Below, one piece after another: positions 8,022-26,891 of a stretch of DNA of 40,582 nt; the stretch's first letter is position 1; each line of letters begins with the position of its first letter. The stretch covers positions 1-40,582 of the forward strand of contig JADZEM010000053.1 of the NCBI GenBank assembly GCA_020850535.1, in the 5' to 3' direction. The position numbers and the translations under genes were made by a program. Under the pieces are notes generated by a model, which saw nothing but the letters and a program-made list of their open reading frames with translations, was not told the DNA's origin and searched no databases. The stretch is from Chloroflexota bacterium. Its GTDB lineage: Bacteria; Chloroflexota; UBA6077; JACCZL01.

Positions 8022-8049
8022 CGGGTTCAGCGCACGACGCGCCCGACAT

Positions 8050-8134
8050 GCAATCACCCTGAGAAGACAGTAGCTGGAGTTTTGACAGAAGCCCGAGGTC
8101 TGTGTAGACTTGCGCGTTGTCGAAGGGTGATTGC
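8050..8134. repeat. 11-bp perfect inverted repeat around the propeller-gene promoter
   Basis: GCAATCACCCT (8050-8060) is repeated as its exact reverse complement AGGGTGATTGC (8124-8134). The pair brackets the TTGACA/TAGACT promoter at 8082-8110. The sequence differs by one base from the terminal inverted repeat of the MITE-like elements in this window (AGGGCGATTGC), but the arms face the opposite way from those of an intact element. It could be an operator, the junction left by two element ends, or chance. Confidence 0.55.
8082..8110 (+). promoter_or_regulatory. Strong sigma-70-like promoter for the secreted repeat protein
   Basis: TTGACA (8082-8087) is a perfect -35; TAGACT (8105-8110) matches 4 of 6 bases of the -10; the spacer is 17 bp. 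The start codon at 8140 is about 22 nt beyond the predicted transcription start. Confidence 0.6.
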
Positions 8135-8139
8135 GTTCC

Positions 8140-9657
8140 ATGCTCAACCGACTCACTGCCATGGCGCTGCTGGCGCTCCTGACTGGCGTGATGGTGCTCC
8201 AGCCTGCGACGTCCACGGTCCAGGCCAGCTTCACGCTGGTCGGGCTGGCGGACGGTGGCAAGCCGAGCGGCTCGTCGCTCTCGCCGGCCGGCAGCCTGAC
8301 CATCGTCTCGGATGACAGCGGCGCGCCCGTCCGCTACACGATCAGCCTGGCCTGGGTCCGCGGCCGGCTGCCGGAGATCGCCCAGGACGACCTGCTGAGC
8401 GTCGAGGTGGAGGTGCTGCCGGACGGGACGCTCGTCGCGAGCAGCGTGACCAACCAGACCGACCGCCAGGGCACGGCCAACCAGGGCCGCTCGACCGGCT
8501 CGGTCCAGATACGCGAGCAGCCCCGCCAGCCTTCCACCACGGACAAGTCCAACGAAGGTCCCCCGACCTCCACGGGTACACCAACGCCCGCATCGACAAA
8601 CGTTATCCGCATCCTCGATACAGCGGGCAACGTCGGCTGGTACACCTCGCTGCAGCTGAACGCCAGCGGCAAGCCGGTCGTGAGCTACTACGACGAGGGC
8701 AATGGCGACTTGAAGCTGCTCGTCTGCGGAGACGCCACCTGCTCGGCCGGCACGACGATCCGCACGCTTGACTCTGGCGGGGATGTCGGCCTGAACACCT
8801 CGCTGCAGTTGAACGCCAGCGGCCACCCGGTCGTGAGCTACGGGTCGGCCATCATCAACGACTTGAAGCTGATCGTCTGCGGAGACGCCACCTGCTCGGC
8901 CCCCACCATCCGTACCCTCGATACAGCGTTCGACGTCGGCCGGTACCCCTCGCTGCAGTTGAGCGCCAGTGGCCACCCGGTCGTGAGCTACTACGACGAG
9001 GGCAATGGCGACTTGAAGCTGCTCGTCTGCGGAGACGCCACCTGCTCGGCCTCCACCATCCGCACCCTTGATGTAGGGGGCATCGTCGGCCGGGACAACT
9101 CGCTGCAGCTGCACGCCAGCGGCAAGCTGGTCGTGAGCTACTACGACAGCACCAACGGCGACTTGAAGCTGATGGTCTGCGGAGACGCCACCTGCCTGGC
9201 CGGCACGACGATCCGCACCCTTGACACAGCGGGCAATGTCGGCCGGTACACCTCGCTGCAGCTGAACGCCAGCGGCTACCCGGTCGTGAGCTACTACGAC
9301 AGCACCAACGGCGACTTGAAGCTGCTCGTCTGCGATGACGACACCTGCTCGGCCCCCACCATCCGCATCCTCGATACAGCGGGCAACGTCGGCTGGTACA
9401 CTTCGCTGCAGCTGAACGTCAGCGGCAAGCCGGTCGTGAGCTACTACGACGAGGGCAATGGCGACTTGAAGCTGCTCGTCTGCGGAGACGCCACCTGCTC
9501 GGCCCCCACCATCCGCACGCTTGACTCTGGCGGGGATGTCGGCCAGTACACCTCGCTGCAGCTGAACGCCAGCGGCCACCCGGTCGTGAGCTACTACGAC
9601 GTCACCAACGGCAACTTGAAGCTGATCGTCTGTGGTGACGCCACCTGCAGACCCTGA
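8140..9657 (+). CDS. Secreted protein of seven 50-residue repeats, likely beta-propeller
   Basis: 505 residues from the ATG at 8140 (a TTG three codons earlier is the alternative, but it would sit only 3 nt from the AAGGG ribosome-binding sequence). A signal peptide covers about 1-28, with cleavage likely near TVQA-SF. Residues about 30-155 form a separate N-terminal domain ending in a Ser/Thr/Pro linker. Then come seven consecutive units of about 50 residues, each with the pattern IRTLDxxGxVGxxTSLQLNA, SGxPVVSYYD, NGDLKLxVCGDATC. The SYYDxxNGDLK motif occurs in many secreted bacterial proteins thought to form beta-propellers, and seven units would close a seven-bladed ring. Each unit has a close Cys pair (CGDATC), suggesting a disulfide in every blade. 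Likely exported to the cell surface or medium; ligand unknown. A terminator-like hairpin follows. Confidence 0.85.
   Translation: MLNRLTAMALLALLTGVMVLQPATSTVQASFTLVGLADGGKPSGSSLSPAGSLTIVSDDSGAPVRYTISLAWVRGRLPEIAQDDLLSVEVEVLPDGTLVASSVTNQTDRQGTANQGRSTGSVQIREQPRQPSTTDKSNEGPPTSTGTPTPASTNVIRILDTAGNVGWYTSLQLNASGKPVVSYYDEGNGDLKLLVCGDATCSAGTTIRTLDSGGDVGLNTSLQLNASGHPVVSYGSAIINDLKLIVCGDATCSAPTIRTLDTAFDVGRYPSLQLSASGHPVVSYYDEGNGDLKLLVCGDATCSASTIRTLDVGGIVGRDNSLQLHASGKLVVSYYDSTNGDLKLMVCGDATCLAGTTIRTLDTAGNVGRYTSLQLNASGYPVVSYYDSTNGDLKLLVCDDDTCSAPTIRILDTAGNVGWYTSLQLNVSGKPVVSYYDEGNGDLKLLVCGDATCSAPTIRTLDSGGDVGQYTSLQLNASGHPVVSYYDVTNGNLKLIVCGDATCRP
8602..9654 (+). repeat. Seven tandem 150-bp coding repeats
   Basis: The repeat-coding part of the preceding gene is seven units of about 150 bp that remain highly similar at the DNA level (shared blocks such as CGGTCGTGAGCTACTACGAC and GTCTGCGGAGACGCCACCTG). 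Units 1 and 6 are almost identical, and units 2 and 7 share the same distinctive opening (CGCACGCTTGACTCTGGCGG). This suggests a recent multi-unit duplication or gene conversion rather than seven old independent copies. Confidence 0.85.
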
Positions 9658-9669
9658 CCTCTCTGCGGT

Positions 9670-9695
9670 GCGCTGAGGCTGCGCGGCCTCAGCGC
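9670..9695. terminator. Hairpin between convergent genes
   Basis: GCGCTGAGGC (9670-9679) pairs perfectly with GCCTCAGCGC (9686-9695) around a 6-nt loop, 13 bp after the stop of the secreted repeat protein. There is no T-run, so efficiency as an intrinsic terminator is uncertain. The remaining space to the anti-sigma stop at 9806 contains only a short direct repeat (ATGGTCTCAG twice, near 9773 and 9784). Confidence 0.5.
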
Positions 9696-9805
9696 GTGGG
9701 GGCATGTACGGGGCAGGCGGAGAGGGCGCTGCCGGGTCTGCTGATCCCGAGAGCGCCCGACGCCGCACCCGTATGGTCTCAGAATGGTCTCAGGCCGGCA
9801 TGGGT

Positions 9806-20378: not shown

Positions 20379-20397
20379 TACGGTCCGGGCCTGCCGC

Positions 20398-20611
20398 AGG
20401 GCGATTGCAGGTTGGGCGGGTCGTGCAGCGTGTCGGGGCTTGAAAGCCCCGCCTACCATCCTGCAGTCGCTTCGCGACGCTCCCGTCTCGCCCATCGACG
20501 GTGTTCCCGGCGTCCGTCGCGCAGCGACGGCATGACTGTAGGCGGGGGTTTCAACCCCCGACTGCGCGTCGCATGGCGTTGCGGGAACATCCCCGAACGT
20601 GCAATCGCCCT
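20398..20611. repeat. Palindromic MITE-like repeat, copy B (complete)
   Basis: 214 bp bounded by AGGGCGATTGCA (20398-20409) and its exact inverse TGCAATCGCCCT (20600-20611). Inside, the left arm carries GGGGCTTGAAAGCCCC then GCCTACCATCCTGCAGTCGC; the right arm carries the inverse blocks GCGCAGCGACGG and GTAGGCGGGGGTTTCAACCC. The whole could fold into one long hairpin. No coding capacity. It fills most of the region between the hrcA promoter and the EamA gene; 20612-20747 beyond it shows no gene or clear site. Confidence 0.85.
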
Positions 20612-20747
20612 GGGGCCGCCCGAGCCGTGTTCGGGGGATGCGTGCTACCCTCCCGCTCAGCATGGTTGAGTTCAGGCGACGATTCGGCGCTGACGGCGTC
20701 CTGCGCGCGATAGGCGGGTTCACACCCGTGCCGGCGACGTGGCCCCG

Positions 20748-22618: not shown

Positions 22619-22673
22619 CCTGGTGGTCTGTCAGTCGTGAACGACCGGGGTGGACCCATGCCGATGCTTCCCT

Positions 22674-22876
22674 CGTCATCCCGAGCGACGTGAGGCTGCT
22701 CCCGTCACCGTCATCCCGAGCGACGTGAGCTTGCGAACGCAGTCGAGGGATCTTCCCCATCGTGGTGGCGTAAGGAAGATCCCTTCGCTCGTTCCTCGCT
22801 TCGGTCGGGATGACAGAGTGGTGGTCGTGCCTCGCGTAGCTTGCCCTGAGCCTGCCGAATGGGGTCGGGATGACGA
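22674..22876. repeat. GTCATCCC dispersed repeat cluster with internal hairpin
   Basis: CGTCATCCCGAGCGACGTGA occurs twice in direct order (starting 22674 and 22709). The unit then continues through GGGATCTTCC (22747-22756), which is repeated inverted as GGAAGATCCC (22774-22783), into an inverted arm ending GGTCGGGATGAC (to about 22814). A last GGTCGGGATGAC lies near 22864-22875. This is the intergenic repeat type that produces false SRPKRGTSEGI-like ORFs in many genomes. It occupies most of the 356-bp gap between two convergent genes (22619-22974); no gene is present there. Confidence 0.75.
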
Positions 22877-22974
22877 CGGGCGCTGAGCGACCCGTGGGGC
22901 GACCCCCGCTCGACCTCTCACAGAATCGGGCGGGGGACAAGCCCCTGCGCCACGTCGGCGGCCTTGCGACGTTG

Positions 22975-24051: not shown

Positions 24052-24168
24052 GGGACGCCTCCTGACAGCAGTGTGCAACCACCCGAGCAGGCGAACTGTC
24101 CGTTGGGCGACAGTCCGCCTGTCGGATGTGAAACGGTCAAATCGAGAAACGGTTCGCGGGAGAGGACG

Positions 24169-24383
24169 AGGGCGATTGCATGTTCATTGGTGTACCCGAA
24201 GCATCATGGAACGGTCGGTCGGGGACTGAAGTCCCCGCCTACCGTCATTCAGTCGCTGCGCGACGGCCGTCAGGAACGGCCGGCACTGGTGCGACTGGAG
24301 CGTCGCGCAGCGACTGAATGACGGTAGGCGGGGCTTTCAAGCTCCGACGAGGCGGCACGACGACATCAACATGCAATCGCCCT
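24169..24383. repeat. Palindromic MITE-like repeat, copy C (complete, perfect termini)
   Basis: 215 bp bounded by a perfect 16-bp terminal inverted repeat: AGGGCGATTGCATGTT (24169-24184) and AACATGCAATCGCCCT (24368-24383). The inner arms are also inverted: CCCCGCCTACCGTCATTCAG followed by TCGCTGCGCGACG on the left is the exact reverse complement of the right arm. The direct repeat GGGAGAGGAC flanks the element (24158-24167 and 24385-24394), one base outside each end, as a target-site duplication would. No ORF. The rest of the 24052-24424 gap holds nothing I recognise. Confidence 0.88.
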
Positions 24384-24424
24384 GGGGAGAGGACACGAGG
24401 GCTCGCACGCGACCGAAATCGATG

Positions 24425-26629
24425 CTAGACCGGCGAGCCGGACGGACGGAACGGCTGCTGCGGCTGGGGTTGTGGCTGCGGTTGAGGCTGGTACGGCTGC
24501 GGCTGCGGTCGGGGCTGCTGCGGCTGGGGTTGTGGCTGTGGCCGTGGCGTCGGCGTGTAGGTCGCCAGCCGCTTCTGCGCCTCGCCGCCGTCCGGCAGCA
24601 CGTCGAGCGCCCGCATCAGGATCGGGAATGCGCCGTCACGGTTGCCGGCCGTCAGCAGGTTGTCGGCCTTGCCGAGCAGCAGGGCGTACAGCTTCTGGCG
24701 CGTGTCCTTGAAGTTGGCGTCCAGCACCATATTCTCTTCCAGGGCCTTGATCCCCGCGTCATCGTCCTTGCCCCAGTTCGCTTCCATGATGGCGTAGTTC
24801 TTGGTGAGCACCACGCGCTTCTGGCCGTCGAGGGCTTCCTTGTCGTTCGGGGCGAGCTTCAGCGCCTCGGCGAACTGGGCATAGCTCTCGTCGAGCTTGT
24901 TCTGCTCGAGGAGCTGGCTCCCGTAGAGGATGTGGGTCTGCGCCAGCGTCTGATCCACCAGCGCCGCCGTGGCCTTGTCGTTCTTGACGACGGGATCGTC
25001 CCGAAGCGCGCGCAACTCGGCAATCGCCTTCGGGAGGTCGCCGCCGGCAACCGCACCCTGGGCCGCCGTCACCCGTGCCATCGCGTCAGGAGTGGGTGGC
25101 GGGGCCGGCGTGCTGGTGGCGGCCGGGGCCGTGGGCTTCTCGGCCGGCTTCTCCGTTGGCTTCGCGGCGGGCGCTGCGGTGGGCGCATCAGCGGGCTTGG
25201 CGGCAACAGCCTGGGCCGTCGTCGGCGTGAGCCCCGGCTGAGCCGCTGGCGCGGTCGTCGATGTCGCGCCGGCCGCCGGCTTCGCGGCGACGGCGGTGGG
25301 CGTTGCCGTGGTCGCGCTGGACCCGCCGATCAGCCCCGATTGCAGCAGCACGAAGCCGCCGACGACCACCAGCGCGAGCGCCGCGATGATCGGTCCGAGA
25401 ATCACGAGCGGCGAGCGCTTCGGCGGCAGGCTGACAGTGCCGGCGACATGCATCGGGCCGGGCTGGTACGGCCCGCTGCGCGCGGAGATCGGCGGTGGCG
25501 TCAGGGTGCTGGTGCTGTTGCCTCGGGCTGGCCCGGCCCAGCCAGGAGCCGGCTGACCCTGCGGACCCCAGCCTCCCGGCTGGACGGCCGGCCCGCCAGG
25601 AGGCATCCCCTGACCCGGCGGCGTACCCTGCCCTGGCGGCATCCCGGGACCGCGCGGCTGCCGCGGCACCGGCGTGCCGGGCATCGGGATGGGTGTGCCG
25701 GGCGTCGGGCCTGCTGGCATCGGTGTCCGGCTTCGTCCGGCGTTGGGATCGAAGACGGTCTGCGCGCCCGTCGCGCCGAATGCCGGCCCGGGGTCTGGCC
25801 GTGGCGGCTGCACGGGCTGCGCCAGGGCCGCCTTCGCGGCGCTGACCAGCTCCTGGGCGCTGCCGTAGCGGTCGGCCGGATTCTTGGCCAGCGCCTTGAC
25901 CACCACGTCGCTCAGGGTGCGCGGCAGATCGGGCCGGATCTGGTGGAGCGGCGGCGGCGGCTCGTGGACGTGCAGATAGAGCAGCGACGGTGTGCTGGCC
26001 GCGCTGAACGGCGGTCGGCCTCCGAGCGCTTCGTACATCAGGACGCCCATCGCGTAGATGTCGGAGCGCTTGTCGACCGGGTCGCCGCGCGCCTGCTCCG
26101 GCGACATGTACTCGGGAGTCCCGATCACCATGTGTGTCGCGGTGAGCTGGCTCGATTCGCCAGCGCGGGCGATGCCGAAGTCTGTCAGCGTCAGCACGTC
26201 GCCCGGCTCGACCATCACGTTGGCGGGCTTGATGTCGCGGTGCAGCACGCCGCGCGAGTGCGCGAAGTCGAGCGCGGCGGCGACCTGGTCGAGCATACGC
26301 ATCGCTCGGTTCGGCTCCAGCGGACCCTCGCGCCGCAACAACTGCCCGAGGTTCTCGCCGTCGATGAAGCGCATGGCGATGTAGTAGACGCCGTCCGCCT
26401 CGCCCACGTCGTAGATCGTCACGACGTGGGCGTGGTGCAGGTTCGCCGCGATCCGCGCCTCTTGCTGAAACCGCTGGACGATGACCTCGTCGGCGGCCAA
26501 CGATGGCTGCAGGATCTTGATGGCGACGAGCCGCCCGAGGCCCGCCTGCTCGGCCTTGAACACCGAGGCCATGCCGCCCCGGCCAAGCTGACTGAGAATC
26601 TTGTAGTGGCCGAGCTGTGTGCCGATCAC
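24425..26629 (-). CDS. PknB-type membrane serine/threonine protein kinase with extracytoplasmic repeat domain
   Basis: 734 residues from a GTG with GGAG about 7 nt upstream; a TTG at 26707 would add 26 unrelated residues. The kinase domain (about 8-270) is complete: glycine loop LGRGGMASVF, Lys38 (VAIKIL), catalytic HRD at 130-132 (HRDIKPANVM), DFG at 150-152 and GTPEYMSPEQA. A Pro/Gly-rich juxtamembrane linker (about 280-400) leads to one membrane segment (about 407-430). Outside are an Ala/Thr/Pro linker and a helical part like tetratricopeptide repeats (AIAELRALRDDPVVKNDKAT, DESYAQFAEALKLAPNDKEA), then a Pro/Gln tail made of PQPQ units. No PASTA domain is present, unlike classical PknB. 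It is divergent from selD. Substrates are unknown. Confidence 0.9.
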   Translation of the reverse strand: MIGTQLGHYKILSQLGRGGMASVFKAEQAGLGRLVAIKILQPSLAADEVIVQRFQQEARIAANLHHAHVVTIYDVGEADGVYYIAMRFIDGENLGQLLRREGPLEPNRAMRMLDQVAAALDFAHSRGVLHRDIKPANVMVEPGDVLTLTDFGIARAGESSQLTATHMVIGTPEYMSPEQARGDPVDKRSDIYAMGVLMYEALGGRPPFSAASTPSLLYLHVHEPPPPLHQIRPDLPRTLSDVVVKALAKNPADRYGSAQELVSAAKAALAQPVQPPRPDPGPAFGATGAQTVFDPNAGRSRTPMPAGPTPGTPIPMPGTPVPRQPRGPGMPPGQGTPPGQGMPPGGPAVQPGGWGPQGQPAPGWAGPARGNSTSTLTPPPISARSGPYQPGPMHVAGTVSLPPKRSPLVILGPIIAALALVVVGGFVLLQSGLIGGSSATTATPTAVAAKPAAGATSTTAPAAQPGLTPTTAQAVAAKPADAPTAAPAAKPTEKPAEKPTAPAATSTPAPPPTPDAMARVTAAQGAVAGGDLPKAIAELRALRDDPVVKNDKATAALVDQTLAQTHILYGSQLLEQNKLDESYAQFAEALKLAPNDKEALDGQKRVVLTKNYAIMEANWGKDDDAGIKALEENMVLDANFKDTRQKLYALLLGKADNLLTAGNRDGAFPILMRALDVLPDGGEAQKRLATYTPTPRPQPQPQPQQPRPQPQPYQPQPQPQPQPQQPFRPSGSPV

Positions 26630-26891
26630 GCCACGTCTCCAACCGCTGTGAAGCTCGTCCCCTGGCGCTGTGGCGAGCCCGGCTTCGGACCTACCAGATC
26701 GTTCCAAGACGTGAGGCGATCATACCAGTGGCGCGGGGGTCGTACAAGATGACGATGCGCCCCTGCTGGCGGTTCCTCGCAGGGATGTTCGGTTGGGAAC
26801 ACTCCGCCAACGCGCCAAACTCGCGAGCCGACAGGCTGACGGCCCGAACGCCCATAATGAGCAGCAGCCAGGACGAAAGGGGGTAGCGACG

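Follow-up and report, generated by a model that had tools for sequence, protein, structure and literature searches.

A short stretch of DNA with no gene of its own, bounded by inverted repeats and lying between two genes of a Chloroflexota bacterium, raises the question of what it is and which enzyme put it there. The window (the whole stretch of 40,582 nucleotides under analysis) is contig C53 of an assembly of 7.65 Mb in 227 contigs, and a first-pass annotation, working from its letters alone, had read the locus as a non-autonomous element (MITE). According to a 2024 review, prokaryotic MITEs are the least studied mobile elements, and the text of that review names neither ISAs1 nor dimers (PMC10969869). 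Our analysis supports the existence of an abundant, previously undescribed family of ISAs1-type MITEs, a gene-less transposon with hundreds of copies. What was an orphan repeat thus becomes a family of transposons for which a candidate enzyme can be named; ISAs1-type MITEs can evidently reach hundreds of copies, and dimers marked by their spacers provide a natural record of transposition history.

The element and its inner palindrome

Comparison with other copies sets the boundaries of the element (Table 1), which ends in 17-bp repeats of the form CAGGGCGATTGCATGTT. Within them, the perfect 16-bp terminal inverted repeats described earlier are present as AGGGCGATTGCATGTT (24169-24184) and AACATGCAATCGCCCT (24368-24383), and the flanking 10-bp direct repeat, GGGAGAGGAC, is exact on both sides. 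The first-pass annotation had placed this repeat one base away from a 215-bp element; the repeats stand, but the length and boundary do not, as the intervening base on each side belongs to the element, being part of its terminal C/G pair, and the length becomes 217 bp. In the family consensus, C-AGGGCGATTGCATGTT ... AACATGCAATCGCCCT-G, the 10-bp duplication directly abuts the ends (C-AGGG...CCCT-G in other copies), and the left terminal base of the window copy has mutated. The closest other copies are 94-95% identical over the whole element. Since even the closest copy found differs from it by about 5%, and since a terminal base is mutated, the earlier description of the element as recently transposed was too strong.

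No open reading frame in the window's list lies wholly inside the element and none there is of transposase size, in keeping with a MITE that has no gene of its own, though plus-strand ORFs of 95-135 aa extend into it and a long, spurious-looking one begins at 24371. The element occupies most of the gap (24053-24424) between two minus-strand genes. As it fills most of the gap upstream of the putative secreted-protein gene, it may affect the promoter of that gene.

The long internal palindrome reported from the sequence is also there, with 48-nt arms that are 90% complementary, and the single-stranded DNA fold of the element is much stronger than those of shuffled sequences (z = -12.3). Each element carries two inverted copies of a small inner hairpin adjoined by a GTAG tag (GTAG-GCGGGG...CCCCGAC). 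In other copies, the two sides of these small hairpins vary jointly, with loop-side triplets ACT/AGT, GTT/AAC and CTT/AAG, and the paired changes could reflect either selection or hairpin-templated repair. Compensatory selection on the long inner stem was considered and set aside: the stem is nearly invariant, 13 double-change cells against a shuffle maximum of 9 are too weak a signal, and covariation is uninformative for a stem that hardly varies.

Table 1. Coordinates of the element, its further copies and the neighboring genes in the window
Feature	Position	Strand	Remarks
Left 10-bp target-site duplication, GGGAGAGGAC	24158-24167	+	Exact match to 24385-24394; 10 bp is the family-wide duplication length
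217-bp non-autonomous element (MITE) with ISAs1-type ends	24168-24384	+	Boundaries from other copies
Left 17-bp terminal inverted repeat	24168-24184	+	First base G here, C in other copies
Inner palindrome, left arm	24218-24265	+	With small hairpin GGGGACT-GA-AGTCCCC
Inner palindrome, right arm	24301-24348	+	With small hairpin GGGGCTT-TC-AAGCTCC
Right 17-bp terminal inverted repeat	24368-24384	-	
Right 10-bp target-site duplication, GGGAGAGGAC	24385-24394	+	Exact match to left repeat
Second, more diverged copy	20397-20612	-	216 bp; 78% identical in family alignment; duplication 8/10, GGGCCTGCCG / GGGCCGCCCG
Third copy, inverted	1 to about 190	-	Cut by contig start, other end unrecognizable; inverted repeat 2-190 vs 24189-24377, 85%
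Ser/Thr protein kinase gene	24425-26707	-	
Putative secreted protein gene	start about 24051	-	Weak 3-keto-disaccharide hydrolase match

Copies, target duplications and empty sites

When the 16-bp end was counted across the genome, as had been proposed, it returned 691 matches at up to two mismatches versus 1 for a reversed-pattern control, so the repeat is not a product of chance. In the 22 contigs that were read (2.15 Mb, mostly chosen for earlier search matches, so that densities are not to be extrapolated), there are 87 paired elements, 57 of them exactly 217 bp long. Sixty relatives, of which two share the family of this genome and none its genus, gave no copy of the 217-bp element, and a text search of published papers did not find the end sequence. 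A lone family end, CAGGGTGATTGCATGTC, lies without a partner on the minus strand at 8045-8061 of the window and is probably a decayed fragment. The same genome (G000) also contains half-size versions of about 108 bp (C15:27180-27287, C187:29414-29521, C28:58442-58548), which have both ends, one hairpin and target duplications of 9-10/10; they seem to be a shorter deletion derivative that is also mobile.

The target-site duplication is a property of the family. In the 2.15 Mb read, the duplication is 10/10 at 25 of 55 solitary copies and 9/10 at another 10. Flanks match at 9/10 or better in 35 elements when the 10-bp repeats directly abut the ends, versus 0-1 when the register is shifted by 1-3 bp, and among flank lengths k of 5 to 14, exact matches occur in 26 elements at k = 10 and in at most one at each of the others. 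Thirteen of the 55 solitary copies have flanks that match at 6/10 or less; to account for these, one must assume decay after insertion, array edges or deletions. The first-pass annotation had named two observations that would speak against its reading, namely flanking sequence shared beyond the ends and a lack of direct repeats at other copies. Neither was seen: flanks differ by locus, with no sharing beyond the element ends, and the 10-bp repeats recur, each with its own sequence, which supports the reading as a MITE with a target-site duplication.

The search for empty sites, also proposed earlier, yielded paralogous ones in other dispersed repeats. For the copy at C143:92248, a joined-flank search found 121 ungapped bp across the site at 87% identity in a paralogous repeat, and for C3:17323 a paralogous alignment is likewise ungapped over the junction. 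Separately, a second dispersed repeat family, of the GGGATGAC type, has a member in the window at 22674-22766 (within about 22650-22890) that matches many contigs of the genome, and at C135:76508 the MITE sits inside another member of this family.

The mobilizing enzyme

The first-pass annotation had called the mobilizing enzyme unknown; good but indirect evidence now places it in the ISAs1 family. A search of public genomes for the end CAGGGCGATTGCATGTT gave 40 stretches that contain it. One of these, from a Chloroflexi metagenome-assembled genome (L091), has two inverted ends 1,256 bp apart that match the MITE ends with 0 and 1 mismatch (17/17 and 16/17), and the gene between them encodes an ISAs1-family transposase (NF033564, 388 bits; PF13808, 118 bits; PF01609). 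The same stretch, 100% identical over the transposase, is present in G001, a genome of the same family as that of the window, where the ISAs1 element has no 10-bp duplication; this kinship also assigns the window to Chloroflexota. It is only through this relative that the terminal repeats can be tied to an autonomous element. ISAs1 target duplications range from 8 to 10 bp, with 10 bp common. Published ISAs1 ends start with CAGGG and come with a 10-bp target duplication (PMC11946415), and ISArsp11, of the same family, has the end CAGGGCTGATGCAAAGTCG and the duplication GGAACAGCAC (PMC6305408). The MITE shares both features, a consensus end starting with CAGGG and a 10-bp duplication, and it is otherwise what a MITE should be: short and bounded by terminal inverted repeats, with duplications at many loci, no transposase gene and a high copy number.

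The earlier suggestion to look for a transposase gene with the same ends therefore succeeded in G001/L091, whereas the assembly of the window's own genome contains no intact ISAs1 transposase, only broken remnants. The copy on C136 has a frameshift and is interrupted by about 5.5 kb of other mobile DNA; a second, on C187, is truncated; the ends of these remnants are related to the MITE ends but less similar to them than those of G001. Within L111:1608-8374 (from C136), a group II intron (RVT_1, GIIM) interrupts the ISAs1 remnant, and the ORF of the intron in turn appears to be broken by a gene for a serine recombinase (Resolvase/Recombinase), a case of nested mobile elements. It is possible that the MITE family is stranded; alternatively, an intact helper may have escaped assembly, given that the MITE is found at 20 of the 44 contig ends that were examined.

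Judged from sequence comparison, a DDE transposase of the ISAs1 family is the most likely mobilizing enzyme. It would act in trans on an element without a gene, recognize the 17-bp ends and insert the MITE where the target has been cut with a 10-bp stagger; repair of the gaps would then duplicate 10 bp on either side. We regard it as very probable that this is an ISAs1-end MITE inserted in this manner, and we infer the actual movement by the ISAs1 transposase. Past the 17-bp ends, no obvious common sequence is seen between the MITE and the ISAs1 elements found, so that direct derivation of the MITE from such an element by internal deletion is no more than a possibility.

A different DDE transposase, such as another PF01609 enzyme of the genome, might have done the mobilizing, as other PF01609 genes are indeed present. 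However, in the surrounding DNA examined, no such gene apart from the ISAs1 remnants is accompanied by comparable ends, and these genes were rejected as candidates, whereas CAGGGC-type ends lie near other ISAs1 genes in the phylum; we consider such an enzyme very unlikely. The inner hairpins call to mind repeats of the REP/REPIN type, which are mobilized by RAYT (Y1 tyrosine) transposases, since each element has two inverted copies of a GTAG tag with a short hairpin, and GTAG-tagged REPs have been reported from Chloroflexi (PMC3733652). Yet a PF01797 search found no Y1_Tnp gene in the genome, on which ground this origin was rejected, and the hairpin occurs almost exclusively within the MITE rather than dispersed as an independent unit (12 of 217 close matches lie outside recognized elements or ends, some of them visibly element fragments). 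The MITE also has 10-bp target duplications and 17-bp terminal inverted repeats, a combination that REPs are not known to make. We assign this origin a minimal probability.

The very strong inner hairpin would also suit a structural or regulatory repeat (a terminator or RNA element) spread by recombination rather than transposition, as would the avoidance of long ORFs: 60% of insertion points fall in ORFs of at least 200 aa, compared with 89% of random points. Recombination does not account for exact, locus-specific 10-bp duplications, empty sites and the lack of common flanks. Moreover, no terminator-like site was found in the element, and no RNA family scored above its gathering score (Rfam matches near 24214-24340 are far below it). 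As an account of the spread, this explanation is refuted and hardly credible; a secondary regulatory effect on neighboring genes is possible.

Relatives and head-to-tail dimers

Like ISAs1-family insertion sequences (ISAs1, ISArsp11 and the G001 element at L091:1658-2913), the MITE has inverted ends starting with CAGGG; the G001 element is the one with 17/17 and 16/17 end identity, and published ISAs1 members are those with 10-bp duplications. Unlike them, it is 217 bp long, lacks a transposase gene and has an inner sequence that is not recognizably related. Four of the stretches from the end search, elements in Salinivenus and other Bacteroidota (L083, L087, L089, L090), share CAGGGCGATTGCATGTT-type ends and 10/10 target duplications but are 172-246 bp long with a different inner sequence. 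The likeness to GTAG-tagged REPs is limited to GTAG beside a short stem in the inner hairpins, whereas here no RAYT gene was found in the genome and the hairpin is not dispersed alone. Other bacterial MITEs (RUP, NEMIS/Correia, ERIC, Nezha, MITEAba12) are similarly short, gene-less, bounded by terminal inverted repeats, high in copy number and strong in hairpin; their terminal repeats are different, and the ISAs1 link and mobile head-to-tail dimers set the present family apart. It is thus an ISAs1-type MITE of ordinary kind in unusually many copies, whose less ordinary feature is its mobile, spacer-marked dimers.

These dimers, the least expected feature of the family, consist of two elements and a spacer and account for 16 of 71 loci. 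All are head-to-tail direct repeats, and this common orientation disfavors independent side-by-side insertions. The spacer is 10 bp long in 15 dimers and 17 bp in one, and its sequence recurs: GTAGCAGCAT at 8 dimer loci (plus one variant) and GTTCGTGACT at 3 (plus one variant). A genome-wide search returned 39 junctions, many with a few recurring spacers. The outer duplications are 9-10/10 at 10 dimers and differ between loci. Because the spacer is common to loci and yet the outer duplications are locus-specific, dimers appear to move as units. A dimer could arise when the target duplication of an element becomes a spacer, whether through slippage, unequal exchange or a tandem produced by the transposase; the outermost two ends would then serve to move the pair.

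On the simplest reading, a dimer arose a single time, retained the target duplication of its founder as its spacer and has since travelled whole. We think it fairly likely that dimers born at one site keep its 10-bp duplication and increase in number by transposing as one longer element, the spacer serving as a heritable barcode of the founding insertion. A candidate birth site is suggested by the element at C141:15024-15240, whose left flank is an element-end remnant plus GTTCGTGACT and whose right flank, with 2 mismatches, is GTTCCTGACC followed by unique sequence. Members of same-spacer dimers do not form clean left-member and right-member clades; copies may therefore have exchanged sequence later, or dimers may have originated more than once. 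A search of the literature by title and abstract found nothing on point for tandem or dimeric MITEs in bacteria.

Elsewhere in the window, a repeat with a step of about 150 bp occurs seven times at positions 8547-9752, its copies being 62-86% alike, and is probably coding because its period is divisible by three.
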